Of a DNA stretch of 64,000 nucleotides, positions 2,227 to 24,570 are shown in pieces. The notes beneath the pieces are model-generated. The model made no database searches, was not told where the DNA came from, and saw only the letters and a list, made by a program, of their open reading frames with translations. Source of the stretch: Petroclostridium sp. X23 (GTDB lineage: Bacteria; Bacillota; Clostridia; SK-Y3); NCBI RefSeq assembly GCF_030013905.1, contig NZ_CP124862.1, positions 2,049,051-2,113,050 on the forward strand, given 5' to 3'. The translations under genes and the position numbers were made by a program. The first letter of the stretch is position 1, and every line of letters starts with the position of its first letter.

Positions 2227-2250
2227 AAGCTCTCATTTATCCATTTGTCT

Positions 2251-7828: not shown

Positions 7829-8301
7829 TTTCATCCCCCACTCATAATCATCTTACAATTTTATAAGTTTATAGGCACATGTTCATGAATACGCTGTATC
7901 TTTATGCGATAATTTTTTACCAATACAACTAATCATCAACTTCACCTAATAGGCATAATTACACCGTACTCATATCCTCGTAACAGTCATGCTAAGAGTC
8001 TTCTTTATTCTAATTAAGCATTCCTTCTATTTTTTGCCACAACAAATTATTATTCTACAAAACTATTGCTATTCCCTGCCACTTAAGTTAACTTTTCATC
8101 GCAAATTTCGACAATATTTTTATATAAGATTTTACTCCACTCTCAAAGTAACCCGTTTAAAAGTCTAAAATCAATCATTAAATATATTACATTTTAAAAA
8201 ACTCTTTCAAATGGAAAATATTTGATTAACTCTTATAAATACTGTAAATAATATCAAAATAAAATCAGTTCTCATGAGACTTTGATGCAAGGAGAATATT
8301 T
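7829..8301. other. AT-rich intergenic region without recognised gene
   Basis: About 470 bases between the divergent SIR2 gene and the 133-residue ORF. It must hold both promoters. Candidate AT-rich boxes are present but none is clear enough to call. No TnsB-type repeat, RNA gene or coding frame was seen. Confidence 0.5.
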
Positions 8302-8804: not shown

Positions 8805-10700
8805 TTATTCATTTACGGTTATATTATTAATGGTACTTTCGACCTCTACCGGCAGGGGTCCTGATAATCCTGCTACTTGTTTCACCTTCCAAGGTTTAAG
8901 AGTTTGATTATCATCTTTAACTTTCCCAGCGGCCCATTGAACTTTTCTTATTTGATAATCTATTCGGCTTTCACATACTGCATCCAGCAATTCTTTAGCA
9001 TTTGGCAATTTATCTAAGTGATTTCTTAACAGATATAACATACCTAATGCTTTACCAACGGTATCCTTATTAATTCTTTTTGGTTTGTCCTGGGATAACA
9101 ACATATCACTAACAAGATCAGAAATCTTTTCTGCTATATAAATATCCCTTTTCCGCCAGTCTACGTTGGATACTATATTTATACTTTTTTGTACAGAAGG
9201 GGAATGATCGTCAAGCCATTGCCTATCATGGTAATGAAGCCAATTATATGTATGTGAATCAATAGTCTTTAGTTTAGATTTTGACATATCTTGATTATCT
9301 TTTATTAAATCAGTCCATCTCTTTCTATAATCTTCACGAAGTTTTCCATTTCTTTGCGTAAATTTCTCTGTCTTCTGCTGAGGCATTATCAATTTTTCTT
9401 TTGTTGTTTGATTCATTCTATCTGTCTTCAGACCTAACCTGCATACATATTTTCTTACCGTTTGCAAATCAACATCTAATCGCCTAGAAACTTCCCTTAA
9501 TGATAGCTGTTGCTCAATGAGCTCCTTTAGCTTATTTTCCCATAATTGTCCATATTCTTTGATCGTTGTATACCGATATTGATCTGACTCACATTGATCC
9601 GGCCCCTTCCGATAATAACTAAACCCACATGAACATCGAAATGTCGCTGTAGGTTTTCTATCTCTACTCCAAGCATATGTTACATCAGTAATTATACGCT
9701 GCTTAAAATGACTTGCAGCTGCGTTCAAACATGGATAAGGGCCCGTTCCAAAATACTGATATCCATGTCTATTATTAAAAAATTTCTCTACTGATCCGTA
9801 AAGAAACCTGATGAATAAAAGATGTTTTATCGGATGAGCGTTATCTCCCTTTTCTCTCGCCATCATTGCCACCCAGTTATGGTTATTTTGAGCATTTGGC
9901 ATCAAACCTATCTCTTGGAGAAAAGCCGAAGAGTAAAATTCCATAAATTCCGCTAATAATCTCTTTTGATCTATCTGACCTTTAGGGGTAACAAGCCCTC
10001 TATCCATTAGGGTTTCTCTATAACAAGAACGAATCCAATCTGGCCCTCTATTAACTGTACTATTATTTAATATCCATTCAATATCTATAGCCAGCAAATA
10101 TAGCTTCCGTTCAATTTCACATGAAAACTTTAGTTTCTCGTTAATCGGTATACAATTCTTTTTATGTGCAGCGTGATAATAATTAGGATTCATATCGTAA
10201 ACCGGCACTGTACTATCATAAGTCAGAATACCATGTTTGGGACATATATAAACTCCGGGTATCTGATGAACACGATGCCAATAGTGTTCTCCATAATTTT
10301 CCAAATCTTCTTCAATACATTTAGGACAAAAGCGTAACTTCTTAAATAATTTCATTGCACTTGAATTAACACCTGCTTTAAGATGAGCCATTTGACTGCA
10401 ATCACTCTTCATAATCTTTTTAATAGATTGAGCTCTATCAGCAACCCAAAATGCTGCATAAAATGGATATAGTGTATGATTTCGGATAAAATCTTCAAGA
10501 CAACAATCCCATGCGAGTGATATATTGTTGCATAATGCATCCAAATGACATGGGAAATCGACAATAGCAGTAACTTTTGAAGAATTAAAAAGATCTCGTA
10601 TTGTAGCTGTGATACTTAGATTTCCTGACATAACGTGATACCGTGCTATAACACTATATAGAAGTTCATCTTTATAGGGTGTTGGGAAAGTACCGATCAA
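8805..10700 (-). CDS. tnsD: TnsD-type target-site selector (long TniQ family)
   Basis: The 631-residue protein opens MIGTFPTPYKDELLYSVIARYH, the TniQ N-terminal signature. A zinc site follows (CPKC at 125-128, H145, CPKH at 153-156). A second cysteine group, CSCG, lies near residue 370, and an HTH-like segment LREVSRRLDVDLQTVRKYV follows. The long C-terminus is expected to bind the chromosomal attachment site, as TnsD does at glmS in Tn7. Here the element sits behind nrdJ, so the nrdJ 3' end is the likely target. It is transcribed divergently from tnsA across a 400-base region. A separate short TniQ is present for Cascade. Confidence 0.92.
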   Translation of the reverse strand: MIGTFPTPYKDELLYSVIARYHVMSGNLSITATIRDLFNSSKVTAIVDFPCHLDALCNNISLAWDCCLEDFIRNHTLYPFYAAFWVADRAQSIKKIMKSDCSQMAHLKAGVNSSAMKLFKKLRFCPKCIEEDLENYGEHYWHRVHQIPGVYICPKHGILTYDSTVPVYDMNPNYYHAAHKKNCIPINEKLKFSCEIERKLYLLAIDIEWILNNSTVNRGPDWIRSCYRETLMDRGLVTPKGQIDQKRLLAEFMEFYSSAFLQEIGLMPNAQNNHNWVAMMAREKGDNAHPIKHLLFIRFLYGSVEKFFNNRHGYQYFGTGPYPCLNAAASHFKQRIITDVTYAWSRDRKPTATFRCSCGFSYYRKGPDQCESDQYRYTTIKEYGQLWENKLKELIEQQLSLREVSRRLDVDLQTVRKYVCRLGLKTDRMNQTTKEKLIMPQQKTEKFTQRNGKLREDYRKRWTDLIKDNQDMSKSKLKTIDSHTYNWLHYHDRQWLDDHSPSVQKSINIVSNVDWRKRDIYIAEKISDLVSDMLLSQDKPKRINKDTVGKALGMLYLLRNHLDKLPNAKELLDAVCESRIDYQIRKVQWAAGKVKDDNQTLKPWKVKQVAGLSGPLPVEVESTINNITVNE

Positions 10701-11100
10701 TTTTATTCCTCCATTATATATTTATTCATATGGGATTTTTACCCATATCAATGTATTACATACCTGACAAAACATCCAGCTTAAAAATTTTAGTTACTAT
10801 GTATCATTCCTTGTAGTATTTTATCAGCATAGATACTTCTTATGTTTCCTTCTTTTCTGGACTAACTTTATGAATCCTATGAAAATACATTCAATAAAGT
10901 GATTGGATTGGATATGAAATGAAAAAATTATGTATAGGTATAAGAATGCAATACATGTATTGTGTAATTCTTTATAAATGATGTATAAGATAAAAAAATT
11001 TAGGATATACTTATTAATTTGCTTATTTTTTGAATAATTGATTAAGATAAAGGAAATGATTAACATCAAAATATAAGATTAGATTGATGAGGTGTTCTAT
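10701..11100. promoter_or_regulatory. Divergent tnsD/tnsA promoter region with palindrome at 10728-10748
   Basis: The 400-base AT-rich region separates two divergent transposition genes. A perfect inverted repeat, ATATGGG-N7-CCCATAT, lies 28 bases upstream of the tnsD start and is a plausible operator for transposase control. TnsA has GAGGTG six bases before its ATG at 11101. An 81-codon frame on the minus strand here is AT-rich low-complexity sequence and is not called as a gene. Confidence 0.5.
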
Positions 11101-11943
11101 ATGGCTAGATATCGACATATCACAAGTACTGAATCCATTCAAAAAAGAATTAAAGAAGGACGCTGCCTCAAAGATGGCAAGGAGTATATTCCATGGATCA
11201 AGGTGCCGGAAATTCCTTCAAGAGGAACTTCTTTGCGCACTTATAATATTCAAACACAAAGACAACATCACATGCTTTCAAGACTGGAGTCTTTTTACTA
11301 TATGACTTTAGAATGGTACGAAGATGTTATAAAGGATATCAAGGAACAATATGCAATTTTAAATATGGATGAAACTATTCAAATTGCTCATGAAATTGGT
11401 GTTAAACATCCAGCGGCTCCAAAAACAAAAGTTATCGTACCTATTACCACCGATTTTTTGATTGAAATTCAGGTAGATGATAAAACCAAAACTATCGCAA
11501 GAACAGTAAAATATGAGAAAGATTTACTTAAGAAAAGAACCCGTGAAAAACTTGAAATAGAACGTATTTATTATGAAAGGCATGGAATAGATTGGGGGAT
11601 CATCACCGAAAAAAATATTGATAAGGTATTTATAGGGAATATTATTTGGGTTCGCAAAGCAAAAAGTTTAGATGGTGTCCCTGAATTAGATATTGATAAG
11701 ATAATCCACATCGAAGAATCTATGCGACGAGCAATACTTCAGAACAACAAAGAGATTGCTAAAATTGCCTCAACAATTAGCGATGAATACGGTATGTCTT
11801 CCGGCACCGGTATGTTTATTGTTAGATTTCTTATTGCAAATAAAATATGGCAAGTAGATATGCATCAACCTATCACTCCTATAACTCAATTAAACTTACT
11901 AAAGCTAGACATTAACAAGCTCTATAAAATGAAAACGAGGTGA
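11101..11943 (+). CDS. tnsA: TnsA endonuclease of Tn7-like transposase
   Basis: TnsA cuts the non-transferred strands at the transposon ends, so that with TnsB the element moves by cut-and-paste. The 280-residue protein has the type II restriction-like catalytic set: E63 in RLESFYY, D118 in ITTDFLIEI and K137 in RTVKYEKDL, with spacing close to E. coli TnsA (E63, D114, K132). A C-terminal winged-helix part covers about 170-280. The start at 11101 is preferred over a GTG nine bases earlier because GAGGTG sits six bases before the ATG. It is encoded separately from TnsB rather than fused. tnsB starts seven bases downstream. Confidence 0.93.
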   Translation: MARYRHITSTESIQKRIKEGRCLKDGKEYIPWIKVPEIPSRGTSLRTYNIQTQRQHHMLSRLESFYYMTLEWYEDVIKDIKEQYAILNMDETIQIAHEIGVKHPAAPKTKVIVPITTDFLIEIQVDDKTKTIARTVKYEKDLLKKRTREKLEIERIYYERHGIDWGIITEKNIDKVFIGNIIWVRKAKSLDGVPELDIDKIIHIEESMRRAILQNNKEIAKIASTISDEYGMSSGTGMFIVRFLIANKIWQVDMHQPITPITQLNLLKLDINKLYKMKTR

Positions 11944-11949
11944 TTATTC

Positions 11950-14100
11950 ATGCAAGACATATTAGCAATAAATAGCGTTATCCAATGGGACCCTATTGAT
12001 GGAAATACCGATATGAAATTAGAACGAGTTCTATGGGTTAATCCTGTAGACAAACTTGTGATCGTTATTGAAATTAATAATCCAAAGGCTTTACCAAAAG
12101 AACGTAGCTTTGTGGAGATTGAAACACTGGTACAAGAATGTACCATAAGAATAATTAATTTTCACTATAAAGATAAACTTATCACGAATGACGATTTACT
12201 ACCGGAAAAATACAAACAAATACGGGATAAAAACTGGAAAATTATCAAAGATTGTGTAATACGTGTGCCTGACATCTATTATGAAAAAACAAGAGGAAAA
12301 CTTATAAAACAGGCTTTTGAAAAATATCAAACATCAAAAAAATATATTTATCTATATTTAAGAAAGTATTGGCAAGGTGGCTTATCAAAAAATTGCTTAT
12401 TGCCTGACTATGAACATTGCGGCAATAAAGGAAAGGAAAAACCAACTGAAGGAACGAAAAGAGGACGCGAAAGAAAAAGGGATGATAATAAGAAAACGGG
12501 AATCAATATAACATTAAAGGATAGAATGGAATTTAAAAAAGCAATAGAAAATTTCTATAAATCTACAGAGAAACGGCCTTTACTACATGTCTATGAAAAA
12601 ATGATATTTAGTCAATATATACTTGGCTACAAGCTTTGCGACGGAGTTGAGGTACCAATATTAAAACCCTTTGATAGTTTACCTACTTTTGAACAATTTG
12701 TGTACTGGGTAAAAAAGGATACCGATATTCAAGCAATAATTGCTGCTCGTGAAGGAGAAAAAGGTTATGCTCTCCGCCATCGTGAGGTCCTCGGCGACTC
12801 GACAGTGCAAGCGTTTGGACCCGGCAGCCGATTTCAAATCGACTCTACAATCGCATCAGTATATATGGTTAATAGTCTGGATCGGACAAAAGTTATAAAA
12901 AGAGCAGTTATATATGTCCTTATTGATGTTTTTAGTAGACTAATAGCAGGCTTATACATAGGCTTAGAAGGTCCTAGCTGGGTAGGAGCCATGATGGCAT
13001 TGGAGAATGCCGCACGGAACAAAGTTGAATATTGTAAAGAATATGGAATCAATATTCAACAAAAAGATTGGCCGTGCGAGTATTTGCCGGAGCTAATTAC
13101 AGCGGATAGATTTGAGTTTCTAAGTGATAACGCAAATAATCTAATTGATACACTTGGCGTCGATGTTGAAATATTACCACCCTATAGAGCAGACTGGAAA
13201 GGAATTGTTGAATGTGTTTTCAGAAGGCTTGATCTTGGAGTTCTTCTATGGTTACCCGGTGCAGTAAAAAAGAAATATAGAGAACGTGGCGAGAAAGATT
13301 ATCGTCTAGGTGCTGCACTAACACTAAAGGAATTAACTACTGTTGTTATACGATGTGTTTTATTCTACAACAACGTACATCGCATGAAATGGTATAAGAA
13401 GAATGAGTTCCTAATTTCAGACCGCATAAAACCGATTCCATTAGAGTTATGGAACTGGGGAATGAAAAATCGGACAGGAAAATTGAAGAAATACCATGAA
13501 GATATTATAAAGCTTAATCTCTTACCAAGTAATTCTGCAACTGTTACCTTTAGGGGAATCAAGCTTGGAAAATATTTTTATACTTGTGAAACAGCAAAAA
13601 GAGACCACTGGTTTCAAAAAGCTAGATCTAATAACTCTTGGAAAATTCCTATATCATATGACCCTAGAAATATGAAATATGCATACATTAGACTTGATAA
13701 TGGAAGGGACTACGAAAAATGTTATCTTCTTGAATCATCTTATATGTATAAAAATGCTTATCTGGAAGAAGTAGATGAGTACGTTAATAATGAAAAGAAA
13801 AATGCATACTTTGATGAATATACAGAACTTCAAAAAAAGGCAGAACTTGATGCATTAAATACCGATACTATCAATACCGGTATATCTAACACCGAAGCAG
13901 CAAAGCAAGAAAAAAGCATTTCTGGTAGAAAGACAATAAAAGGTATCAGAGAAGCAACAGCTGATGAGAGGCAAAGACTTGCAAAAGAAGAAGCTTTTGA
14001 GCTTCCTGATACTAGTAATATCTTATCTGACGATTTGGAGAATGAAGATGACTATCTTGCTCCAAAAAGCTATATTCGCTACGAGGAGGAAAACCCATGA
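11950..14100 (+). CDS. tnsB: TnsB DDE transposase
   Basis: TnsB binds the repeated sites at both ends and joins 3' ends to target DNA. The 716-residue protein has an rve-type core with D298 (FQIDST), D393 (LSDNANN) and E421 (GIVECVFR); the 28-residue D-E gap is normal for the family. N-terminal helical DNA-binding regions precede it, and a charged C-terminal tail likely contacts TnsC. The last four bases overlap the tnsC start (ATGA), so translation is coupled. Its likely binding sites are the AGTTTCCAACT repeats at 24485-24555. Confidence 0.95.
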   Translation: MQDILAINSVIQWDPIDGNTDMKLERVLWVNPVDKLVIVIEINNPKALPKERSFVEIETLVQECTIRIINFHYKDKLITNDDLLPEKYKQIRDKNWKIIKDCVIRVPDIYYEKTRGKLIKQAFEKYQTSKKYIYLYLRKYWQGGLSKNCLLPDYEHCGNKGKEKPTEGTKRGRERKRDDNKKTGINITLKDRMEFKKAIENFYKSTEKRPLLHVYEKMIFSQYILGYKLCDGVEVPILKPFDSLPTFEQFVYWVKKDTDIQAIIAAREGEKGYALRHREVLGDSTVQAFGPGSRFQIDSTIASVYMVNSLDRTKVIKRAVIYVLIDVFSRLIAGLYIGLEGPSWVGAMMALENAARNKVEYCKEYGINIQQKDWPCEYLPELITADRFEFLSDNANNLIDTLGVDVEILPPYRADWKGIVECVFRRLDLGVLLWLPGAVKKKYRERGEKDYRLGAALTLKELTTVVIRCVLFYNNVHRMKWYKKNEFLISDRIKPIPLELWNWGMKNRTGKLKKYHEDIIKLNLLPSNSATVTFRGIKLGKYFYTCETAKRDHWFQKARSNNSWKIPISYDPRNMKYAYIRLDNGRDYEKCYLLESSYMYKNAYLEEVDEYVNNEKKNAYFDEYTELQKKAELDALNTDTINTGISNTEAAKQEKSISGRKTIKGIREATADERQRLAKEEAFELPDTSNILSDDLENEDDYLAPKSYIRYEEENP

Positions 14101-15809
14101 GAGCACATGATGAAAATACCAGCTTTAATAATACTCTTATTGGCGACACTGTTGATGCTGAATATAAAAAACAACTTTTGATACACTATTCAAACAATCC
14201 CATGATAGAGGCTCTACCTCCAATATTATCTCCTGAAGAAGCTATATCTAAAATAAGATATCAACCTTTCTTTGATGTTAAGGAAAAAGAGCTTCCATCC
14301 TATCTCCGACTACACTGTGTAGAACGTATTAGGGATTTTGTTGAGCCACTCAATAAACATATTGAAATTGAACAAGCAATTTCTAGAATTATACGTCATG
14401 GCTATATAGCAAAGCACCGAAATCCGTTAACAAAAGAATATACTAAGTTATTAAATATTAGTTCAGAGGCTGTCAGAAGAAAAGATATAAATTATGTCTT
14501 AGACCTCTGCCCAAATAGATCTACCTCTACAGGGTTCACCTTAATTGGTCTAAGCGGAATGGGAAAAACAACAGCAATAGAAAAAGTACTTCTTCAATAC
14601 CCTCAAATTATCACGCATTCCAATTATAAAGATCGACAGTTATTCAAAAAGCAAATTGTATGGATCAAGCTCGATTGTCCTCATGATGGAAGCACAAAGG
14701 GCTTATGTTTAGATTTTTTCCAAACGGTAGATTCCTTAATTCAAACTGATTACTGTCGTAAGTATGGGTCAGGTAGAGCAGCTAATGCAATGCTTCCTGC
14801 AATGAGTCATGTTTCTATTCTTCATTCAATGGGTATTCTTGTAATAGATGAAATTCAAAATCTAAGCTTACTAAGAACTGGTGGAGCAAACGAACTACTA
14901 AACTTCTTTGTCAATCTAGTAAACAAGATTGGAATGCCGGTTGTGTTGATAGGGACTCCGGAAGCAACTGGTACAATTAGTGAAGTTTTTAAGAACGGTC
15001 GCAGAGGAACAGGCGAAATCATACCGATATGGGCACGAATGGAAAAAGATAATGAATGGGATACATTTGTTAGAGAACTTTGGAGATATCAGTGGAATAG
15101 GATTGAAACCTCTCTCACTCCAGAATTTAGTGATATTTTATATGAAGAAAGTCAAGGAATACCGGATGTTGCTGTTAAACTATTCATTTTAGCGCAATGG
15201 CGTGTTATTACGACCGGAGAAGAAAAAATGAGCCGTAAGGCAATAACTTCAGTTGCCAGAGACAGTTTGACATTAATTAGTCCTGCACTAAATTTACTTC
15301 GTTCCGGTAATAATAAATTATCTAAGTATCCCGATTTATATATTCCCGACATCTACCTAGAAAGCTACAAAAACAAATGTATAAAGAGAAGTTCAAACTC
15401 ACTAAACGATAGCAAAGAATCCAAAAAAGATGAAAAAGTAGATACGAAAGAAAAAAAAGTTTCTTCTATCGTTGCTCAAATTTCTTTATGGCTCGTTCAA
15501 TCCGGAACAGAACGAAAAAAAAGCGAGAAAGTTGCAAAGAACGTTGTTGAGAAACTAGGATGTGATACAAATATCAGTATTTTATTACGAGAAGCTTTTA
15601 CATTAGCAGGTTCAGAAACGCAAACTATTCCATCAGACAATAGCAAAAATACTCCAAAAGCTATTGAAACTACTGAAAAACAGAATTATTCCGAGGGATT
15701 AGTTGGTATTCCTATCGATGTCACCGAATCTCCTCAAGAAATCGGAAAGTATTTAGAAGATAAAGATATTATTAAAAATCCTTTAGAATTTGATAAGCTA
15801 AGTATATAA
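14097..15809 (+). CDS. tnsC: TnsC AAA+ ATPase regulator
   Basis: TnsC links the target selectors (TnsD or TniQ-Cascade) to the TnsA-TnsB transposase. The P-loop GLSGMGKT lies at residues 151-158 and Walker B ILVIDEIQNLS has D251 and E252. A sensor-like VVLIGTPEA follows and fits the AAA+ fold. The N-terminal 150 residues and the charged, lysine-rich tail after about residue 430 flank the ATPase. Length, 570 residues, resembles Tn7 TnsC rather than the short TnsC of type V-K elements. The GAGGAG site lies within the tnsB 3' end. Confidence 0.94.
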   Translation: MRAHDENTSFNNTLIGDTVDAEYKKQLLIHYSNNPMIEALPPILSPEEAISKIRYQPFFDVKEKELPSYLRLHCVERIRDFVEPLNKHIEIEQAISRIIRHGYIAKHRNPLTKEYTKLLNISSEAVRRKDINYVLDLCPNRSTSTGFTLIGLSGMGKTTAIEKVLLQYPQIITHSNYKDRQLFKKQIVWIKLDCPHDGSTKGLCLDFFQTVDSLIQTDYCRKYGSGRAANAMLPAMSHVSILHSMGILVIDEIQNLSLLRTGGANELLNFFVNLVNKIGMPVVLIGTPEATGTISEVFKNGRRGTGEIIPIWARMEKDNEWDTFVRELWRYQWNRIETSLTPEFSDILYEESQGIPDVAVKLFILAQWRVITTGEEKMSRKAITSVARDSLTLISPALNLLRSGNNKLSKYPDLYIPDIYLESYKNKCIKRSSNSLNDSKESKKDEKVDTKEKKVSSIVAQISLWLVQSGTERKKSEKVAKNVVEKLGCDTNISILLREAFTLAGSETQTIPSDNSKNTPKAIETTEKQNYSEGLVGIPIDVTESPQEIGKYLEDKDIIKNPLEFDKLSI

Positions 15810-15830
15810 TGATTAACAAGTAACTCTATA

Positions 15831-15879
15831 ATGCGGTTGATGTTAAAGCCAATAATACCCTTTACAAACTCAACCGCAT
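15831..15879. terminator. Hairpin between convergent tnsC and tniQ
   Basis: Arms ATGCGGTTGA and TCAACCGCAT form a perfect 10-base-pair stem with a loop of about 29 bases. The hairpin sits in the 86-base gap between the two convergent genes and is a likely shared terminator, although the T-runs are short. Confidence 0.5.
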
Positions 15880-15895
15880 AAACTGAGCTATGATT

Positions 15896-16828
15896 TTATA
15901 GACTGAGATCTTCAAAAAATGCTTTTGCACTTCCAAATAGCAGTCTAATAAACAGTAAGTGTCTAATGGGACTTGATTGTTTTTTTATAAATGGAATATC
16001 TTGGACCCATGAGTTGTAGTCTTTGTCACTATCATAGAAACCTATGTCATTCAAAAATTCTTTAGAAAAGAAATTTATGTACACATCATATAATCGCTTA
16101 TAATCCATAAACTCAAATATCTTATAAAATCCTAATTCTGCCAAGCGCTCTATATATCTTTTTCGTATTATTTCAATACTCTCATCTCTTAATTTATTAG
16201 TCATAATGTATTCAATATCGACGGAAAAATTTCTCTTTTCTTCCTGTAATGATTTACTAACTTTCTCAGGAACATGTGAATCACAATCAATATTCAGTAT
16301 ATTAATTATTTTACCGCTTTTATTGCTTTTCTCATATCTACTTAAAACATTATTGTGTATTAAACAGAAATCGTTTCCCGGCACCTGATGTAATCTGTTT
16401 AGATACCCTTCTTCCCTTTCTTTCAAAAATTTTTTCATACATTTATTACAAAACTTTATGACTCCTTTATCATTTTCTGGTATAGCAAGTAAATCTGCAA
16501 TTCCGCAAATTTTAGGTATACCTGACAGTAGACTGGACATCAATCTAATTTTTTGCTGTTTAGAAATGAAGGGTTTAATCAGAGGAAAAATTGTATTATT
16601 ATTGATAATATCAATTGCGTTCATACAGTTCTTCCCCATGCTTTGATTCATTACATCTGTAAATACACTGATATTACTTGGGAAAAATAGTCCTCTACCA
16701 CTATGCTTTTTATCAAACAGTTCCTTAGCTGTCCCTTGATAATTTTTTTGACCGGTTAAGTTATGATATCTTACACAAATACTATAAAAAATCTCATTAG
16801 GATATATTTCTAAAAAATGGCCTAGCAT
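15896..16828 (-). CDS. tniQ: Short TniQ, probable Cascade-transposition adaptor
   Basis: The 310-residue protein opens with the TniQ signature PNEIFYSICVRYHNLTG. Its zinc site is FCNKC at 126-130, H147 and CLIH at 155-158. It ends SSPIRHLLFIRLLFGSAKAFF, matching the segment AHPIKHLLFIRFLYGSVEKFF in the middle of the neighbouring TnsD, and then stops. It therefore lacks the DNA-binding C-terminal half of TnsD. In known type I CASTs such a short TniQ docks on Cascade, which supplies DNA recognition by crRNA. It lies on the minus strand downstream of the CRISPR array and may have been transcribed with it before IS66 inserted. Confidence 0.88.
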   Translation of the reverse strand: MLGHFLEIYPNEIFYSICVRYHNLTGQKNYQGTAKELFDKKHSGRGLFFPSNISVFTDVMNQSMGKNCMNAIDIINNNTIFPLIKPFISKQQKIRLMSSLLSGIPKICGIADLLAIPENDKGVIKFCNKCMKKFLKEREEGYLNRLHQVPGNDFCLIHNNVLSRYEKSNKSGKIINILNIDCDSHVPEKVSKSLQEEKRNFSVDIEYIMTNKLRDESIEIIRKRYIERLAELGFYKIFEFMDYKRLYDVYINFFSKEFLNDIGFYDSDKDYNSWVQDIPFIKKQSSPIRHLLFIRLLFGSAKAFFEDLSL

Positions 16829-16856
16829 TGTTTCTCCTTCTCGAGTACCATGTAGA

Positions 16857-16883
16857 ATTAAATACAGTATGTCCTGGTTAAAC
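16857..16883 (-). repeat. Degenerate terminal CRISPR repeat, cut off by IS66
   Basis: The 27-base sequence ends GTCCTGGTTAAAC on the plus strand, identical to the end of the array repeats at 19752-19846. Its other half differs by two missing bases and substitutions. Its last eight bases, GGTTAAAC, are also found at the far end of the IS66 copy (19709-19716) as the target duplication. With transcription on the minus strand the degenerate half is the 3' end, as in trailer-end repeats. It lies 28 bases upstream of tniQ. Confidence 0.8.
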
Positions 16884-16944
16884 GTAAACGCTCCATTCTC
16901 GGTACCTTGACAAATGTTAGACCATTATTCATAGCCATTTGATT

Positions 16945-18576
16945 TTATTGTTCTGACTTTTTGATGTTTTTCGGAAGCTTATCTGACCATGGAAGCAGAT
17001 CATTCAAAAATGATTTATCTGTATCTTCCATATGTTTTGGAATCTCTGTTAACAGATATTCAAAATATTCATAAGGCTTTAAGTTATTCGCCTTTGCAGT
17101 TTCAGCAATACTATAGATGATAGCAGAACTGGTTGCTCCTCTTATCGTATCGATAACTTGCCAATTCTTTTTTCCTATACAGAAGCCACGAATGGCTCGT
17201 TCACTTGCATTGTTATCCATTGGAACATCACCATCAGTTAAAAATACTTTAAGATAGCGTTCCTGATTTATTAAGTAATTGAATCCTTCGCGAAGTTTTC
17301 CTTTTCCCGGGACTTCACATTCATGCTGTTTGATGTACACAAATAGAGCATCCACCATGGGCTTAATTATAACCTGGCGTTGCTTAAGTCGTTCCTCAGA
17401 AGTAAGGTCCTTTAACTTGCCTTCTTCACGATATATGGCCTGGATCTGTTTCATGAGCAGATATGCCATGGATTCTTTCCTTGCAGGCTCCGAAATCACT
17501 TTCTGTGCTTCATCAAGACGCCGTCTTGCGTGAACCCAGCACCCAGCAATCGTCAGATCCTCAAGTTGTTTTTCTACAGTGTGGTAGACCTGATATCCAT
17601 CTGTTACGCAGATACCAGAATAATCCTTTAGGAATGTCCTTGGATGTGATGCATTCCTCGTTTTCTGGTATTCATACAACACGATCTGCCTGGCTCTATA
17701 CATGAAACCTGAACGGTATACCCACATGTAGCTCTTACTTCCTGCCGGTCGACCGTCACGATTAACGAGAACCGGAGTTTCATCTGCCTGGATGACATGA
17801 TAATCATAGAGTAGCTTGTGAAGATGATCATACATGATTCCAAGGTATTCTTCTCCAAGACGGATCATCCAGTTCGCCATATTCTGACGGGTAATTGCCA
17901 GTCCATAACGTTCAAACTCTTTTTCCAAACGATAAAGAGGAACTGCATTCACATACTTGCCATTCATGATAGCTGCCCCAAGTGAAGGAGATACCGGACT
18001 ACCATGAAGCAGTCCCTTCGGATACGCTGCTTTTACCATATGCTCATCTGATTTGCTTGCATAGACTCCAATATGGTGCTCATCGACTTCTACCTTTGCA
18101 GGGACAAACTTATACCGTTTGGTAATCACATCCGGAAGCTGTTTCCAGCCTTTTTCACCGAATTCAGCAGTCAATTCTTCCTCTGTCATGTAATGATTGA
18201 TTCTGTTCGTTGGAAGACCTGCTAAATCTTTTTCTTTCTTTCCGGACTGCTTTGTCTTCTTTGAGGGGCTTTGTTCTAGCTCCTCAGGTTCCGGCACATC
18301 CAGATCACAGACTGCCTCTGCTTCGTTAAAGAATACGATGGTCCCATCGACTTCCATAAAGCGGATCTGAGCAACATCCTCCATCTTCTCGGTGGATCTG
18401 CCAAAACGATGGTTGGTAGCAAGAACTAGCTGTTCCATCATGAGCTGCATCTTCTCATTAAGAGCGTGCGTCTCCTGAGTAAGCGCATCCATTTGTTCTT
18501 GCAGACCAAGAAACATCGAGACAAGGAGCGACTTGTCCATTGTATTCAATTGTTCTTCTGTATATTTAAATGCCAT
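16945..18576 (-). CDS. tnpC: IS66 transposase TnpC
   Basis: The DDE transposase of IS66 elements catalyses strand transfer. The protein has an N-terminal coiled coil (about 5-50), a linker, a zinc-finger-like region and the catalytic core. Motifs visible are IQADETPVLV, CVTDGYQVY and a final VPMDNNASERAIRGF, where the last acidic residue lies. About 543 residues is a normal length. The start at 18576 has AAGGAG nine bases upstream. It is separated from tnpB by 273 noncoding bases of the element. Confidence 0.95.
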   Translation of the reverse strand: MAFKYTEEQLNTMDKSLLVSMFLGLQEQMDALTQETHALNEKMQLMMEQLVLATNHRFGRSTEKMEDVAQIRFMEVDGTIVFFNEAEAVCDLDVPEPEELEQSPSKKTKQSGKKEKDLAGLPTNRINHYMTEEELTAEFGEKGWKQLPDVITKRYKFVPAKVEVDEHHIGVYASKSDEHMVKAAYPKGLLHGSPVSPSLGAAIMNGKYVNAVPLYRLEKEFERYGLAITRQNMANWMIRLGEEYLGIMYDHLHKLLYDYHVIQADETPVLVNRDGRPAGSKSYMWVYRSGFMYRARQIVLYEYQKTRNASHPRTFLKDYSGICVTDGYQVYHTVEKQLEDLTIAGCWVHARRRLDEAQKVISEPARKESMAYLLMKQIQAIYREEGKLKDLTSEERLKQRQVIIKPMVDALFVYIKQHECEVPGKGKLREGFNYLINQERYLKVFLTDGDVPMDNNASERAIRGFCIGKKNWQVIDTIRGATSSAIIYSIAETAKANNLKPYEYFEYLLTEIPKHMEDTDKSFLNDLLPWSDKLPKNIKKSEQ

Positions 18577-18849
18577 AATCAAGAACTCCTTTTATTGGAC
18601 TTAATTATAGCAGATACAGCGTAATTACGCTAATCTGTGTTCGTTAGCCTTCCGTCATTTTGACGGTGGATAACCTTTCTAAAAGGTCAAAAATCTTTGA
18701 CATCTTAGAATGGTTATCCACACAAACCGATAATTCTTATATAATTGGCCTTAACAATTCACGGTCAGAATTGCAGTGTGTGGATAATAGAAAAGTATTT
18801 TCAGATTTCAGCTTTTCAAGAATTTTAAATTCTACGAAATGCACAAAAA

Positions 18850-19212
18850 CTACATAGCCTTTGGTGGATCCTTTAATTCTGTAATCGGACGTTTTGCAAC
18901 AATCTCTAGCCCTTGCATTAACATTCGGTACTGTTCCTCTGATATTTCAATCGCCTCATCTGCAGATCTTGGCCAACTAAAGGCACCTGTATTAAGTCTC
19001 TTATACAGCAGCAAAAAGCCATCACCTTCCCATAAGACCGCTTTGATACGGTCACACCGTCTTCCACAGAATAAGAATAACGTGTTTGTGTCATAAGGAT
19101 CGAGATGAAATTGAAAGCGAATGATGGCGGCTAATCCCTCAATACCCCTGCGGAGATCGGTATACCCTGTTGCCAGATAAATTTTCTTGAATCCGTTTCC
19201 ATCATTTAACAT
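18850..19212 (-). CDS. tnpB: IS66 accessory protein TnpB (Orf2)
   Basis: The 120-residue protein shows the IS66 Orf2 signature: KKIYLATGYTDLRRGIEGL, LFLFCGRRCDRIKAVLWE and GFLLLYKRL. The start at 19212 overlaps the tnpA stop codon by 11 bases, which suits coupled translation. A longer frame that starts upstream runs over tnpA and is not the gene. TnpB is required for transposition of IS66-type elements; its exact job is unsettled. Confidence 0.93.
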   Translation of the reverse strand: MLNDGNGFKKIYLATGYTDLRRGIEGLAAIIRFQFHLDPYDTNTLFLFCGRRCDRIKAVLWEGDGFLLLYKRLNTGAFSWPRSADEAIEISEEQYRMLMQGLEIVAKRPITELKDPPKAM

Positions 19213-19588
19213 GAGCGATAGCTCCGATAAGAGTACTAATAAACTCAGTTGATGCAGTAGAAAGTAATTCAATCGATATATCATTTGTTCCATGTAGTAT
19301 TGCAACAGTGTCAGATGCCAGCGTTTTTTCGCTTGGGCATGAATGTACAGGTTTTGAGTTTGTTGGTACAGGCAATTCCACAAAGTGCGACTCATTATTC
19401 TGAGCATGGGCTAAACACGCCTCGCGCACACGTCGTAGCCTAAAATAGTATGCTGCTTTTGTTATACCATTCTGTTCGCACCAGGTATCAACTTTCATTC
19501 CAGCCGGTCGAGCCTGACAATCTTTAATTTGCTCCGACCATTTTTGTATACGAATCTGCTCTGCCACTAAACTTGTTTGAGTCTTCAT
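19202..19588 (-). CDS. tnpA: IS66 accessory protein TnpA (Orf1)
   Basis: The 128-residue protein has an HTH-like N-terminal part containing IKDCQARPAGMKVDTWCEQN and NGITKAAYYFRLRRVR, as in IS66 Orf1 proteins. It is the first gene of the element, about 120 bases inside the terminal repeat. The fold suggests binding to transposon DNA. Confidence 0.9.
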   Translation of the reverse strand: MKTQTSLVAEQIRIQKWSEQIKDCQARPAGMKVDTWCEQNGITKAAYYFRLRRVREACLAHAQNNESHFVELPVPTNSKPVHSCPSEKTLASDTVAILHGTNDISIELLSTASTEFISTLIGAIAHVK

Positions 19589-19708
19589 ATGTTCTCCTTC
19601 CCTAGAGTCAAAAAAGTTTAGTACTAAACTTTTTTGACTGAATAGTTCATGAGAGCATTATCTCAAATATAATACTTAAAGAAAAGGTACTTACTATGAA
19701 GCGTTTAC

Positions 19709-19846
19709 GGTTAAACAATTAGGGAGCAGGTTAGCTTTGTTTATTGCCCTAATTTAAATACATTATATGTCCTGGTTAAACAGGTAATGATACCAATGCT
19801 ACACCTGCCACTACTCATTTAAATACATTATATGTCCTGGTTAAAC
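19709..19846 (-). CRISPR. Minimal type I-B CRISPR array, three repeats and two spacers before IS66 insertion
   Basis: Two identical 30-base repeats lie at 19752-19781 and 19817-19846, beginning ATTTAAATACATTATATGTC on the plus strand. Spacer 2 is 19782-19816 and spacer 1 is 19717-19751, both 35 bases. The third, degenerate repeat now lies partly at 19709-19716 and partly beyond IS66 at 16857-16883. Read on the minus strand the repeat starts GTTTAACC and ends ATTTAAAT, like clostridial type I-B repeats that end in GTAAAT. That matches the strand of the cas genes and tniQ. The leader would then lie on the cas5 side. A tiny array without cas1 or cas2 is typical of CASTs. Confidence 0.93.
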
Positions 19847-20049
19847 TAAGAGAGTTAGCAATACTCTTTACTTAGTCCTATAGAGAAATAGTGTAACCCT
19901 ATATTTGTGAAACTTTTTTCCAACCAAAGTGCTCTAAGTCCAAGTATTTATTGCATAGCTTTACACCATGGTATTTTCAAGTATCCACCTTCTTCTATTT
20001 GATAGCAAGCTGGAAAAACTGATTAATAATATTCTATTTGGCAAAATAT
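19847..20049 (-). promoter_or_regulatory. Probable CRISPR leader between cas5 and array
   Basis: About 200 bases without a coding frame lie between the cas5 stop codon and the first perfect repeat. Position and strand make it the candidate leader, but no clear promoter boxes could be fixed by eye. The array may also be read through from the cas operon. Confidence 0.4.
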
Positions 20050-20814
20050 TTAATAAAAAGCTATTGAACAATTCTTATAAGTATATACACTGTATAATTT
20101 TTGAAGATAGCAGACTTCTACGTTTGTATATATAAATTCCTGATATTCATAAGCATTATCCTCTTTTCTCAACCGTAATGGCAAATATTCTCGAAACACA
20201 TATGGTATACCTCCGTCATGCGTTTTCCCATCTTGATGTTTTATGTCATAATTAAATCTTGGAAACATTGAATAAATAAATTTTGCATCATGTACTTCGT
20301 CGAGCTCGACAATACTGCATTCTTTTATTATTGCTAAATGATTCTTTTTCCCAAGATAAGGAATATACTTACATTGCATGCACATGATATTTTTTACTAA
20401 TATATCAAAAACGATTCTATCTATTGATCCATCATCTAAAATAAATATTTTCCACGCAGGCTTTTCAAGCCATTGCTCTCGTATAACTAAAGTCCCTCCG
20501 TTCTCTTTACTTGCAAACCCTGTAGTATTACAAAAAACATGATTACTTTTTTGAAATACTCCATTGGTACATAAAGGAATTATCGAAACTTTTAAATCCT
20601 TGAGCTGCTGGTAGAATTCCGGATAGACATCATTTCTATTGCCCATTCTATACTTATACTGCTTATTATAACCTCCTAGCCCTATAATCGTCCCTAACAA
20701 TCCGAGCAATGCAATTTTGTGAATATGGTTATATGTAAAATTTATATATGAATTAACATCCGGTTTCCTAAAAAAAGCAGTTCTCCCGCTCAATTCAAAC
20801 ATAAGTGCTTTCAC
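20050..20814 (-). CDS. cas5: Cas5b subunit of type I-B Cascade
   Basis: Cas5 holds the 5' handle of the crRNA at the foot of Cascade. The 254-residue protein has the Cas5 N-terminus: MFELSGRTAFFRKPDVNSYINFTYNHIHKIALLGLLG pattern, with FELSG, AFFR and the later GLLGTIIG loop. The start is a GTG with AAGGAAG six bases upstream, and it overlaps the cas7 end by 20 bases. It is the last cas gene before the CRISPR array; no cas3, cas4, cas1 or cas2 follows. Confidence 0.88.
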   Translation of the reverse strand: MKALMFELSGRTAFFRKPDVNSYINFTYNHIHKIALLGLLGTIIGLGGYNKQYKYRMGNRNDVYPEFYQQLKDLKVSIIPLCTNGVFQKSNHVFCNTTGFASKENGGTLVIREQWLEKPAWKIFILDDGSIDRIVFDILVKNIMCMQCKYIPYLGKKNHLAIIKECSIVELDEVHDAKFIYSMFPRFNYDIKHQDGKTHDGGIPYVFREYLPLRLRKEDNAYEYQEFIYTNVEVCYLQKLYSVYTYKNCSIAFY

Positions 20815-21760
20815 GATATTCTTCCTTTGTAAATATGTTATATTTTTTTGCTTGAATAGATTCTTTAATCTCTGTTGTATAAGGATTATAGTAAATTTCT
20901 ACTTGCTCTATAGCACTTCTTATTTTATTTTGGTTTAAAAACGAAAGATTTGTTATATCAATACAGCACTTTTCTTCTCCTTTACTAAAAAGCACGAATT
21001 GCGCTAACTCAGGTAAGTAAGCATCTTCTCCGCATTTACATTCCACAAACAACGCAAATTCGTTTTCGCATCCTACCTTACTAACTGAATTATATACGGT
21101 AGCCGATATGCGTGATGCAGTCTTGAATTTTTCATATGCGTCCGTTGTATATCCTTCAAAACCTTCAATTAATCCTATATAATCTTCGTAATTTCCAGGG
21201 TTAACTACAAATGAATAGAAGTAATGCGCTTCATCCGTTAAAACTGTTGTTCCAAGTGTAGTAGCCTCCGCTTCATCAGACTTAGAATTTCTAAAAGGAC
21301 ACATAATATCTCCCACAATTATTTGACTATTTTTATATTTATTGATTCCTTGCATTATTTGTACTGACCCTGTTATAGAAATGTTCTGACCGGCCTCAGC
21401 GAAAGTCACTCCAAAATTCATTATATCAACTGTAGAAAATAAGTTTTTCAACACTGTTGTTGTTGACTGCCTCCGAGCATCCTCATTGAATAGCTCTGTA
21501 TACCTTTCAGAAAGACTCTTAGGGTGCAGTTTCTTTATTGAATTATTATCTTTCTCTTCAGTTTGTTTAAATGTCCTAATGGAAAAAACTTTATCTCCTT
21601 GATTTCTCCATAACTGTCTCATTGGGTATTTCACTGCTTTATCGCTTCCATATATTTCTCCATTTCCAAGTGTCTTCGGTCGGCCAGTAAAATCTGCATT
21701 CCAATTGGACATACTACTCTTTATGCCAATGATACCATATACTCTATTCCGCATCTTCAT
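20795..21760 (-). CDS. cas7: Cas7b backbone subunit of type I-B Cascade
   Basis: Cas7 copies coat the spacer part of the crRNA. The 321-residue protein resembles the DevR/Csh2 group: it starts RNRVYGIIGIKSSMSNWNAD, has a DIMNFGVTFAEAGQNISITG segment, and a late HYFYSFVVNP with a helical C-terminus. Size is normal for Cas7b. It overlaps cas8b by 17 and cas5 by 20 bases, so the genes are tightly coupled. The ribosome binding site is weak, consistent with coupling. Confidence 0.88.
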   Translation of the reverse strand: MKMRNRVYGIIGIKSSMSNWNADFTGRPKTLGNGEIYGSDKAVKYPMRQLWRNQGDKVFSIRTFKQTEEKDNNSIKKLHPKSLSERYTELFNEDARRQSTTTVLKNLFSTVDIMNFGVTFAEAGQNISITGSVQIMQGINKYKNSQIIVGDIMCPFRNSKSDEAEATTLGTTVLTDEAHYFYSFVVNPGNYEDYIGLIEGFEGYTTDAYEKFKTASRISATVYNSVSKVGCENEFALFVECKCGEDAYLPELAQFVLFSKGEEKCCIDITNLSFLNQNKIRSAIEQVEIYYNPYTTEIKESIQAKKYNIFTKEEYRESTYV

Positions 21761-22160
21761 ATACTATCGCTTCTTTCATCTTGTAATCTTTATATATTAA
21801 GTTTTTTGATAAAAAGCCGGCTAAGAATATATCTTCCATATGACTCAACTCTTCAGAAGCACTATATCCCATAATCATACTAAATGCCTGCTTAAATCTT
21901 TTATCTTTACTTGATATTGCATATTTATAACGATTTAAAATAGATACTAGTTCTCTATTAAGATTATTAATATTTTTTAAATTCATAAACTGCTCCAGCA
22001 TACGGTAGTCACTTTTGTCCGATTTGCTTTTAGATGAAATAAAGTAGAGGAGCTGACCGCATAAAAAAAAGTATTCTTCATCCGAGCTGCATTTTGCAAA
22101 GTCTTTAGTACTAATTTTATCACTTATGCTGTTATACAATTTTTCTATATTATCACCCAT
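21744..22160 (-). CDS. Possible Cas11b small subunit from internal start in cas8b
   Basis: An in-frame ATG at 22160 has AGGAG 11 bases upstream (22172-22176). Translation from it would give 138 residues starting MGDNIEKLYNSISDKIS and covering the helical C-terminal domain of Cas8b. Internal translation of Cas11 from cas8b is established for type I-B systems. The site here fits in place and size, but the spacing is slightly long, so this is inference. Confidence 0.5.
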   Translation of the reverse strand: MGDNIEKLYNSISDKISTKDFAKCSSDEEYFFLCGQLLYFISSKSKSDKSDYRMLEQFMNLKNINNLNRELVSILNRYKYAISSKDKRFKQAFSMIMGYSASEELSHMEDIFLAGFLSKNLIYKDYKMKEAIVYEDAE

Positions 22161-23492
22161 TGAATCTCTATCTCCTAAGCCAATGTATTGACTAATCGTT
22201 ATCATAAGATTATAAATCTGTTTTGCAGCAAACCGGTCATAGTCCAATATTTTTTGCTTTATAATCTCTTTACTAATAAATTTAAAAATAGATTGTATTA
22301 GATAGGGATTATTTTTTCTAAAAAAGCTATAAAAGGCATCCTTTGATAGTAGCAACAGTTCAAGTACTTTTTTGTTAATATTCCCCGTTTTAATATCGGA
22401 AAAATACGCCTTTCTCAGATTACCTTCAAAATATTCATTATCAATTTCTTTTTCTAAATCTTTTAAGGTATTAAGGTTGTATGTCACCGTTTGGTTATCA
22501 TCTTGTATAATATTTAAATAATCTTTTACTTTCAAATTAATAGTTTGCTTAAAATTTGGAAAATACTCATAATCGGTAATAATAACTTCATCATTCTTAA
22601 CCATTGTATTCAAATAATAATAGCTGCCGTTACTTATATCAGCAAATTTTAAGAGTGGCATACTAAAATCAAAATCCATTGGGATATATCCCACTCTATT
22701 TTTCTGAAATTTCAGCCAATCGAAAAATTTCTTATGGATTATTGCGTCATCAAACCGGATTTTATAAGGTGCTTTACATTTCATTGTTTTTAATTCAAGG
22801 TACGGCTTTTTAGAATTCATTGATATATTGTTATTAGAAACACCATAAATATCACCATCAATTTTTATATTATATTTGTTAGTATTGAATACTCTTGGAA
22901 TAAGATAACGATTATACTCCTGCTTGTATTTTTCCATATCTACATAAAAAAACAATTTAATATAACCTTCAAAGCTCTTCTCTATTGATTGAAGATCATT
23001 TATAATATTATCGAGATTTTTTAGTAGATATTCTCTAAATCTATTTAAGATGATAGTATCAACATCAACCGGTATTTGACTTAATAGCTCATCTACTAAT
23101 TTCCCTTTAACACCCTGCTTATTACTTTCTAAGATATTAAAGTAGTTATCGACGATCTCTTTAATTTCTAGTCGTGTTAATGCCTTTTTCTTAACTGTCC
23201 CGAAAACTGTATCTTTCTTAATAAATAGCGAAAAATAATTATTACTATGAATCTTTTTATTTTTGTCTACAGCTTTCTGCGTACTTATTAAACTACTATA
23301 ATAGTCGGCCCGCTTAAACCAATCCAATAATTCCGAGGGTTCTGCCATTGAATCAATGATTAATCGTTCCTGAGAATAATCTTGATTAATTCTAATGTAT
23401 ATACCTCTTTTAAATCTGTATACATTTAGAATAATACTATCCCCATGGTTTTTATAGGCGTTTTCAAAAATGCAAATAAGATCATATAGCAA
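21744..23492 (-). CDS. cas8b: Cas8b large subunit of type I-B Cascade
   Basis: Cas8b reads the PAM and completes Cascade. The 582-residue protein is of the Csh1/TM1802 type. The clearest segment is C-terminal: CSSDEEYFFLCGQLLYFI, then SKSDKSDYRMLEQFMN, LNRYKYAI and SMIMGYSASEELSHMEDIFLAGFL. The start is a TTG with GGAGAGG nine bases upstream, because a TGA codon lies just before it in frame. It sits 21 bases after cas6. An internal start at 22160 may give a separate Cas11 subunit. The usual Csh1 zinc cysteines were not obvious. CAST Cas8 proteins need not recruit Cas3, which is absent here. Confidence 0.85.
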   Translation of the reverse strand: MLYDLICIFENAYKNHGDSIILNVYRFKRGIYIRINQDYSQERLIIDSMAEPSELLDWFKRADYYSSLISTQKAVDKNKKIHSNNYFSLFIKKDTVFGTVKKKALTRLEIKEIVDNYFNILESNKQGVKGKLVDELLSQIPVDVDTIILNRFREYLLKNLDNIINDLQSIEKSFEGYIKLFFYVDMEKYKQEYNRYLIPRVFNTNKYNIKIDGDIYGVSNNNISMNSKKPYLELKTMKCKAPYKIRFDDAIIHKKFFDWLKFQKNRVGYIPMDFDFSMPLLKFADISNGSYYYLNTMVKNDEVIITDYEYFPNFKQTINLKVKDYLNIIQDDNQTVTYNLNTLKDLEKEIDNEYFEGNLRKAYFSDIKTGNINKKVLELLLLSKDAFYSFFRKNNPYLIQSIFKFISKEIIKQKILDYDRFAAKQIYNLMITISQYIGLGDRDSMGDNIEKLYNSISDKISTKDFAKCSSDEEYFFLCGQLLYFISSKSKSDKSDYRMLEQFMNLKNINNLNRELVSILNRYKYAISSKDKRFKQAFSMIMGYSASEELSHMEDIFLAGFLSKNLIYKDYKMKEAIVYEDAE

Positions 23493-23513
23493 AAATCATA
23501 ACCCCTCTCCGAT

Positions 23514-24209
23514 TTATGCGTATATTGGAAGGCAAAAGCCCATCCCATTACTCGAGTTTTTTTCCAGGATTCCTGCTGCTAGCGCAATAAAAGCTAATTT
23601 TTGAGATACCGCATCGTTATTAATAATTAAGTGAAATTTATTTCCTATCAGGGTCATATCCTTATACTTTAAAGCTATAGGCGTATGATTATCAAATTCT
23701 ATATACTTAATGAAATTATTATTTATAATGAGATCTTCTCCATAATAGCTTTTATATTTCTTTAAAAGATTCAATTGTATTTGCTCAATCAATTTTAATA
23801 CATCATGTCGTTGTCTCCAATAGTTTCCATCTATCGTTGCTATGGCCGGCGTTATTGTACGTAGACCAATAATGTGTCGTTGGTGAATATCTCTTTGCTG
23901 AACCGAAAGGATCTTTATGCAATCATCAGTAACCACTGGAAGTATCTTCTCAATCTTAGCAAGAAATTCTTTACTTAAACTTCGTATCCTAAAAACATAT
24001 GTTTTACCAGCTTTATATATTTTTCCTGATTCAATCGGATATAAAGAATTATAGACATAGAATTTATAACAATTTACTTTATGCCAGTCTTTTAAATCCT
24101 CATCATATAGCAATGCCTTATTTATAAATTGCCCAATCTTTCTGTTTGTCTCATCATATGGTAAATCTTTTACTAAATATACTGTATTAATTAATTCATA
24201 ATATTTCAT
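23514..24209 (-). CDS. cas6: Cas6 pre-crRNA endonuclease
   Basis: Cas6 cuts the CRISPR transcript within each repeat. The 231-residue protein has paired ferredoxin-like halves and ends with the glycine-rich loop AAGILEKNSSNGMGFCLPI, the family hallmark. His residues near DIHQRHIIGLR could be catalytic, but this cannot be settled by eye. The start at 24209 is chosen over a GTG 12 bases earlier because GGGTGA lies eight bases upstream. It leads the cas operon, about 360 bases inside the transposon's right end. Confidence 0.87.
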   Translation of the reverse strand: MKYYELINTVYLVKDLPYDETNRKIGQFINKALLYDEDLKDWHKVNCYKFYVYNSLYPIESGKIYKAGKTYVFRIRSLSKEFLAKIEKILPVVTDDCIKILSVQQRDIHQRHIIGLRTITPAIATIDGNYWRQRHDVLKLIEQIQLNLLKKYKSYYGEDLIINNNFIKYIEFDNHTPIALKYKDMTLIGNKFHLIINNDAVSQKLAFIALAAGILEKNSSNGMGFCLPIYA

Positions 24210-24221
24210 ACTACATCTCAC

Positions 24222-24480
24222 CCTTCTTCCTTCTCTTTATATACAACTAATTTAGTATAATTATCAATTAAATTTAAATTTTTCTAATTTTTTTACTTAT
24301 TATGATTGAGTAAAATACTTTTTATTCATGGAAATATTACCCAAACAAAAAGCAAAAAATAAAGGCTCTGAAGGATAAACTCATTCAAAGCCTAAATTTA
24401 ATATTCTGAGATTATATAATCATTAACACACAAAGATTTTTGTGATGAATATATTTTATAAACATAAAACTACATATGTT
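24222..24480. other. Region between cas6 and the right-end repeats
   Basis: AT-rich noncoding sequence that must hold the cas operon promoter. A weak imperfect hairpin (GGCT...AGCC) lies at 24364-24394. No gene is supported; the plus-strand frames that start here run into nrdJ as shadows. Confidence 0.4.
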
Positions 24481-24484
24481 AATC

Positions 24485-24570
24485 AGTTTCCAACTCTATT
24501 TTTTATTTTGTCTCTTTTAGTTTCCAACTTTATTCTTGAGTTTCCAACTCTATTCTTTGAATCCAACACA
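24485..24570. repeat. Transposon right end with three TnsB-type binding sites
   Basis: The motif AGTTTCCAACT(C/T)TATT occurs at 24485-24500, 24519-24534 and 24539-24554, all in one orientation. Read inward from nrdJ, the end begins TGTGTTGGATTC and then reaches the first site. Tn7-like ends start TGT and carry several such sites. The exact last base is either 24570 or 24568. The neighbouring five bases, ATATG or CAATA, would be the target duplication; the partner copy is outside the window. Confidence 0.85.

Follow-up and report, generated by a model that had tools for sequence, protein, structure and literature searches.

The window considered here, a 64,000-nucleotide stretch of the Petroclostridium sp. 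X23 genome (bases 2049051 to 2113050 of a single 5.51-Mb contig, C1), holds the right-hand part of a Tn7-like element that encodes, beside its transposition proteins, a type I-B Cascade and a short CRISPR array, and that is likely a CRISPR-associated transposon (CAST). Its genes come in the order tnsD (minus strand), tnsA-tnsB-tnsC (plus strand), and then tniQ, the array, cas5, cas7, cas8, and cas6 (all minus strand); the minus strand thus reads cas6-cas8-cas7-cas5-array-tniQ. An earlier model-made reading of the same DNA, hereafter the original prediction, had listed tnsA, tnsB, tnsC, a long tnsD, a short tniQ, and cas6-cas8b-cas7-cas5, and all are present, each with the expected family match. 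The core open reading frames (ORFs) are open, and family matches span most of their length.

The tnsD gene (8805 to 10700) is full length and encodes 631 amino acids (aa), with matches to PF15978 (1.6e-107) and PF06527 (3.1e-27). It is followed by tnsA (11092 to 11943; 283 aa; PF08722, PF08721, and Tn7 TnsA at 9.4e-37 over residues 7 to 255), tnsB (11950 to 14100; 716 aa; Tn7 TnsB 7pik E 3.5e-94 over residues 89 to 691), and tnsC (14097 to 15809; 570 aa; PF13401, PF05621, and Tn7 TnsC at 5.5e-79). TnsB has no Pfam integrase-core match; its residues D298, D386, and E421 (spacing 88 and 35), which we take to be catalytic, align with the equally spaced D, D, and E residues of Tn7 TnsB; these columns are invariant across seven aligned TnsBs (alignment A1). 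The short tniQ (15896 to 16828, minus strand; 310 aa) lacks the C-terminal half of TnsD. Its product clears PF15978 (57.5 bits versus a cut-off of 32.4), falls just under the 27-bit cut-off of Pfam TniQ at 26.6 bits, and resembles PADLOC TniQ_IB over residues 5 to 306 (E 7.9e-14). Judged by family and predicted fold, this TniQ is a TnsD truncated after about 310 residues; it has no DNA-binding extension, and its gene lies beside the cas genes, with an IS66 insertion now between the array and tniQ.

The four Cascade genes, all on the minus strand, are cas6 (23514 to 24221; PADLOC Cas6b at 8.9e-82), cas8 (21744 to 23492; Cas8b/Csh1, PADLOC Cas8b at 1.8e-135), cas7 (20795 to 21760; Cas7b, PF05107 at 2.7e-27 and PADLOC Cas7b at 8.5e-32), and cas5 (20050 to 20814; Cas5b of the Hmari type, TIGR02592 at 1.5e-36). 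These family models bear out the predicted assignments of Cas5, Cas7, and Cas8, the last of which matched the PADLOC model and nothing in Pfam or NCBIfam. A putative Cas11 of 138 aa could be translated from an internal start at cas8 codon 445 (21744 to 22160, minus strand): this ATG has an AGGAG upstream, M445 is invariant in 21 aligned Cas8 rows, and it opens a predicted helix. The original prediction also held that cas3, cas1, cas2, and cas4 are absent, which stands for the whole element of 35,925 bp: a tblastn search with the host's own Cas3, Cas4, Cas1, and Cas2 gave a single element match, 16 residues to Cas1 at E 0.42, a chance hit. No cas3 or adaptation genes thus adjoin the cas genes within the element, and a complete set lies next to a long array at a distance of about 1.9 Mb.

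The two-spacer array is likewise as predicted, with two identical 30-bp repeats and 35-bp spacers, all on the minus strand: repeat 1 (GTTTAACCAGGACATATAATGTATTTAAAT, 19817 to 19846), spacer 1 (19782 to 19816), repeat 2 (19752 to 19781), and spacer 2 (19717 to 19751). The repeat match was obtained in none of 100 shuffles of the window. Beyond spacer 2 come eight bases of a third repeat, an IS66-family insertion sequence of 2,825 bp (16884 to 19708, minus strand; NF033517 at 4.5e-100, PF05717, its ends, and its duplications), the same eight bases again, and the degenerate remainder of the third repeat (16856 to 16875, minus strand), which ends 27 bp before tniQ. The 8-bp duplications, GTTTAACC, occupy 16876 to 16883 and 19709 to 19716, inside the third repeat, and the IS66 separates tniQ from the array. 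A whole repeat stands on either side of spacer 1, but not of spacer 2.

Where does the element begin and end? Its ends were located by scanning its own genome with a 17-bp site from the right end. Copies of this site with no mismatch or one occur at just two loci, separated by 36 kb. A single copy with two mismatches is distant from both, and at three mismatches the site is matched about as often as a reversed control pattern. The whole element spans C1 2037691 to 2073615, so that window positions 1 to 24565 belong to it: the right end, genome 2073615, is window 24565, and the left end lies 11.4 kb before the window start. The 27 terminal bases are identical in inverted orientation at both ends (TGGATTCAAAGAATAGAGTTGGAAACT at 24539 to 24565, minus strand), and both are flanked on the outside by the 5-bp target-site duplication ACACA (right copy, 24566 to 24570). 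Putative TnsB-binding sites number three at the right end (the terminal repeat, 24485 to 24501, and 24519 to 24535) and three at the left, within genome 2037701 to 2037840. These perfect ends and duplications place the tns genes, cas genes, and array within one Tn7-like element, as the original prediction had it; position 8805, where the stretch it described begins, is not the left end. A 113-bp segment elsewhere (C1 2002463 to 2002575) is 89% identical to the right-end interior and has no TnsB sites; it is perhaps a separate small repeat.

Just outside the right end lies the gene for the large chain of ribonucleotide reductase (24584 to 26962, minus strand; PF02867 at 8.7e-142), whose 3' end is the inferred attachment site: 13 bp and the 5-bp duplication separate its stop codon from the element. 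The 3' end of the gene is conserved in 7 relatives (7 of the 8 other genomes with a match), and in the 150 bp after their reductase stop the best agreement with the 17-bp site is 12 of 17 positions, versus 17 of 17 here. Prototypic Tn7 has several TnsB sites per end, makes a 5-bp duplication, and inserts immediately beyond the 3' end of a conserved gene. The element shares all three traits, along with homologues of TnsA, TnsB, TnsC, and TnsD; it differs from Tn7 in its additional TniQ and Cascade, in standing beside a reductase gene rather than glmS, and in having no match to the TnsE family among the ORFs examined. Because the layout of element and reductase gene is that of Tn7 beside glmS, the comparison suggests that TnsD recognizes the 3' end of the reductase gene as a homing site. 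Another right end, with 89% identity over 253 bp and the same orientation, occupies C1 2037448 to 2037684 (L023:7448-7684) and stops 6 bp short of the element's left end. No left partner was found for it, and it is therefore probably what is left of a previous insertion at this site; abutting the element with matching orientation, it agrees with a preferred site that was used twice. Beside this second end lie genes of 454 and 351 aa without a Pfam or PADLOC match.

The element's Cas proteins are of the Csh1 (Hmari) kind of type I-B known from Clostridia. Among 391 genomes of the class, 22, including this one, contain a Cas8 match with an E of at most 1e-20, and several of the named homologues are called Csh1. 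Gene order was examined at 10 of the 23 Cas8 places other than the element; it is cas6-8-7-5-3-4-1-2 in nine (counting L157, with a gap before cas4 and a cas2 that runs off the fetched end, and the copy on this same chromosome, in which cas4 and cas1 are separated by an extra ORF), and the tenth ends at a contig end inside cas3. The own-chromosome copy (L030, C1 137001 to 157000) is a complete I-B system of the Csh1 type and has a long array, of which 20 repeats were listed in the fetched part; family models confirm its Cas3, Cas1 (Hmari type), and Cas2, and its Cas4 falls below the cut-off at E 3.7e-16. It shares with the element the order cas6-8-7-5 and the same PADLOC Cas8b model, and the proteins are 54% (Cas7), 44% (Cas5), 40% (Cas6), and 30% (Cas8) identical, but it keeps cas3-cas4-cas1-cas2 and has no Tns match in its 20 kb. 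The repeats of the two systems are equal at 22 of 30 positions, compared with 23 of 30 for a relative (G004). In a Cas8 tree composed solely of matches to the element's Cas8, that protein pairs with the metagenomic P0003 (48% identical) at 100/100; placement of its Cas7 is weakly supported (92/76). In sequence, the element's cas operon looks like a Clostridia I-B operon without cas3-cas4-cas1-cas2.

In total, the presence of a Cascade and an array in an element without the nuclease, and of a small TniQ beside the cas genes, makes RNA-guided insertion the best explanation; judged by this parts list, by the loss of the nuclease, and by the truncated TnsD beside the cas genes, it is a likely one. 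We posit, with a probability of roughly 80%, that the element inserts by means of a Cascade guided by CRISPR RNA (crRNA) and acting via TniQ, and that TnsD homes it to the 3' end of the reductase gene. In this model, Cas6 would cut the array transcript, and Cas5, Cas7, Cas8, and the internally started Cas11 would bind, together with the crRNA, a target probably located on plasmids or phages. TniQ, which lacks the C-terminal half of TnsD and would correspond to the portion that was solved structurally along with TnsC, would then bridge Cascade to TnsC, and TnsC would recruit TnsA and TnsB for cut-and-paste transposition, while TnsD would direct the element to the end of the ribonucleotide reductase gene. 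We speculate that spacers are acquired in trans; the chromosome's own complete I-B system is a possible source of both spacers and crRNAs. The sections of PMC11406308 and PMC11656645 cited here report crRNA-guided insertion together with TnsD homing for other I-B CASTs, and the cited part of PMC10293859 treats a small TniQ as a hallmark of those Tn7-like transposons that have additional target selectors.

Several observations weigh against this model. A pattern scan (one genome per species) gave 276 TnsB relatives, the best 80 of which were taken further, and none of these 80 loci carries cas genes like the element's, although only 42 of them hold at least 21 kb and cas genes past contig ends would be missed. 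The protein search returned no other homologue of this TniQ, and the system as a whole was not found a second time. A common origin of the TniQ, which sits on a long branch, with those of presumed I-B1 CASTs (below) has an approximately unbiased (AU) test p of 0.50. The case for TnsD homing is built on position and one tandem end. Finally, the third repeat is broken by the IS66, such that a crRNA from spacer 2 may not end normally at its 3' side and tniQ no longer adjoins the array, and for neither spacer was a protospacer found in the genome itself or in plasmids, phages, or viral contigs.

Could this copy be the crippled descendant of a working CRISPR-guided transposon, with only TnsD-guided movement left? 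The clean 8-bp duplication around the IS66 within the third repeat, the presence of just two spacers, and the failure to find their protospacers would all fit such a history. Yet the core ORFs are open and matched by their families over most of their length, and the IS66 genes are codirectional with tniQ and could supply its transcription. Furthermore, one crRNA could still form because repeat 1, spacer 1, and repeat 2 are intact. We therefore regard a crippled copy as possible but unlikely.

A second alternative, which we consider distinctly improbable, is that the cas genes are passenger defense cargo, whose Cascade silences by binding or borrows the host Cas3 and has no part in site choice. 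The element does hold other defense cargo (SIR2-HerA and an Avs4-like gene), and the genome does encode, in its complete Csh1-type I-B system, a Cas3 alongside repeats similar to the element's at the 22 positions noted above. However, a second, truncated TniQ beside the array and cas genes has no evident use as cargo, and small TniQs typify Tn7-like transposons with extra target selectors, as stated in the cited part of PMC10293859.

If RNA-guided insertion is indeed the function of the element, how does it relate to known type I-B CASTs? Cas genes of another kind were seen in 6 of the 80 TnsB loci, all cyanobacterial (L082, L095, L098, L107, L110, and L124), and these six were taken as I-B1 by their layout, which follows the account in the cited part of PMC11406308: they are Tn7-like, keep TnsA and TnsB as separate proteins, have both a TniQ and a TnsD, and encode a I-B Cascade. 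Two of them, L098 (Nostoc calcicola FACHB-3891) and L107 (cyanobacterium FACHB-63), served as stand-ins for I-B1 in the comparison. With type I-B1 (AvCAST/Tn7743) the element shares separate tnsA and tnsB (L098), tnsC, tnsD plus a short tniQ, cas6-8-7-5, and Tns proteins of the prototypic Tn7 type. TnsA, TnsB, TnsC, and TnsD of L098 are 35 to 40% identical to the element's, the element's TnsD is 39 to 40% identical to the TnsDs of L098 and L107, and L098 supplies the row of the TniQ-core set with the highest identity to that TnsD (44%). In contrast, L098 and L107 encode Cas proteins that fit the MYXAN and Cst2 models, a branch other than the Csh1 branch of the element, and that have no meaningful BLASTP similarity to its Cas proteins (best Cas-to-Cas E, 1.6). 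In L098 the order is tnsA-tnsB-tnsC-tniQ-cas6-cas8-cas7-cas5-tnsD, and in both loci tniQ comes right after tnsC, whereas the element's tniQ lies behind the array on the strand opposite tnsABC. Type I-B1 is described as homing to glmS in the cited part of PMC11406308, whereas this element, judged by position, would home to the ribonucleotide reductase gene.

The TnsB trees also set the element apart from I-B1. In a tree of 45 rows, left after thinning 83 at 75% identity, the element's TnsB groups with a homologue from a Lutispora metagenome-assembled genome (MAG; 60% identical) with support of 100, away from the cyanobacterial CAST group. The TnsB proteins P0123 to P0129 are 52 to 56% identical to it. 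In a 35-row tree, a clade of the element, Lutispora, and eight cyanobacterial rows, five of which carry cas genes in the fetched DNA, was rejected (AU p 3.8e-6, a somewhat generous value given that the clade was chosen after the first tree). The TnsD core pairs with Lutispora TnsD at 100/99. It is thus very improbable that a cyanobacterial I-B1 CAST moved horizontally into Clostridia: the parts list, the unfused tnsA and tnsB, the TnsD identities and L098 as nearest TniQ-core row, and the TniQ test (not rejected) would all accommodate such a transfer, but it is contradicted by the TnsB clade test, the pairing of the TnsD core, the different Cas branch, and the position and strand of tniQ.

The original prediction had proposed a separate Firmicutes lineage, and this is supported, as TnsB groups with a Lutispora (Bacillota) homologue and a union of both with the cyanobacterial clade is rejected, Cas8 sits with Csh1-type proteins, and the Cas proteins have no BLASTP similarity to those of presumed I-B1. 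Of the phylogenies it had proposed, that of TnsB sets the element apart from presumed I-B1, that of Cas8b places it with Csh1-type proteins, and for TniQ a common origin with the presumed I-B1 TniQs has an AU p of 0.50. Unfused TnsA and TnsB, which it had offered as a mark of this lineage, fail as one, given that cyanobacterial L098 also has separate tnsA and tnsB.

Three other loci contain TniQ-like genes. L156, a 5.4-kb contig of the Lutispora MAG that holds the closest TnsB of the species collection (60%), has a TnsD split by a single stop. A second TniQ-like gene starts opposite it in head-to-head orientation and is truncated by the contig end; L156 could be a sister element. L120 (Terrihalobacillus insolitus) has apparently two successive Tn7-like gene sets, the first ending in a 295-aa TniQ-like protein. 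In L087 (Herbinix hemicellulosilytica), TnsD is followed 4 kb on by a 289-aa TniQ-like protein of very divergent sequence, possibly another target selector; two unidentified ORFs lie in the interval.

With type I-B2 (PmcCAST/Tn7744) the element shares a type I-B Cascade and TnsD plus TniQ. It differs in having separate tnsA and tnsB ORFs (11092 to 11943 and 11950 to 14100) where I-B2, in the cited section of PMC11406308, has a fused TnsA-TnsB; the same section gives tRNA genes as the I-B2 homing site, and there is no tRNA gene in the window. The PDB includes type I-B CAST structures (8fcj and 8fcu), yet no PDB Cas chain was matched by sequence with Cas8, Cas7, Cas5, or Cas6, and the Foldseek match of the element's Cas8 to 8fcj was weak (E 2.3).

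Judged by its genes, the element likely arose when a Tn7-like transposon captured a type I-B Cascade independently, for the third time after I-B1 and I-B2. We further consider it probable that it constitutes a new I-B CAST subtype ("I-B3"), that is, an independent domestication of a Csh1-type Cascade in Clostridia, with its own TniQ derived by truncation of TnsD, and the first CAST to home to a ribonucleotide reductase gene. A 2024 review, in the part cited, counts five CAST types, two of them I-B, and confines I-B1 to cyanobacteria (PMC11406308). The 2025 CRISPR classification adds I-D, I-C, IV-A, Mu-associated I-A, and I-E5; a 2021 survey of 6,549 elements had minimal I-B systems in cyanobacteria only (9 cases); and the words Firmicutes, Bacillota, and ribonucleotide reductase are absent from the main text of the 2023 target-selector survey. 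In the portions of the literature considered here, type I-B CASTs are not described from Firmicutes or Clostridia; an unnamed entry in the tables of the primary I-B papers is possible.

If this assessment is correct, a third capture, from another Cascade branch and in Clostridia, would mean that the capture step is repeatable. The element would also offer a fresh TniQ-Cascade pairing for structural comparison and might serve as a basis for DNA insertion tools in anaerobic Firmicutes. The shift from immunity to targeting would be open to direct comparison, given that the chromosome also encodes a complete I-B system of the Csh1 type.

The element also carries cargo genes. A defense pair on the minus strand (4870 to 7834) consists of SIR2 (6641 to 7834; PADLOC, 1.6e-124) and HerA (4870 to 6666; 1.1e-158), and further cargo includes a PDC-M40B-like gene and a WYL-domain gene. 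At 2 to 4029, an Avs4/NACHT-like gene stands beside a group II intron and its reverse transcriptase gene (RF00029 at 2152 to 2228). Outside the element, a cyclic di-GMP-I riboswitch (RF01051, 78.9 bits) occupies 38957 to 39048.

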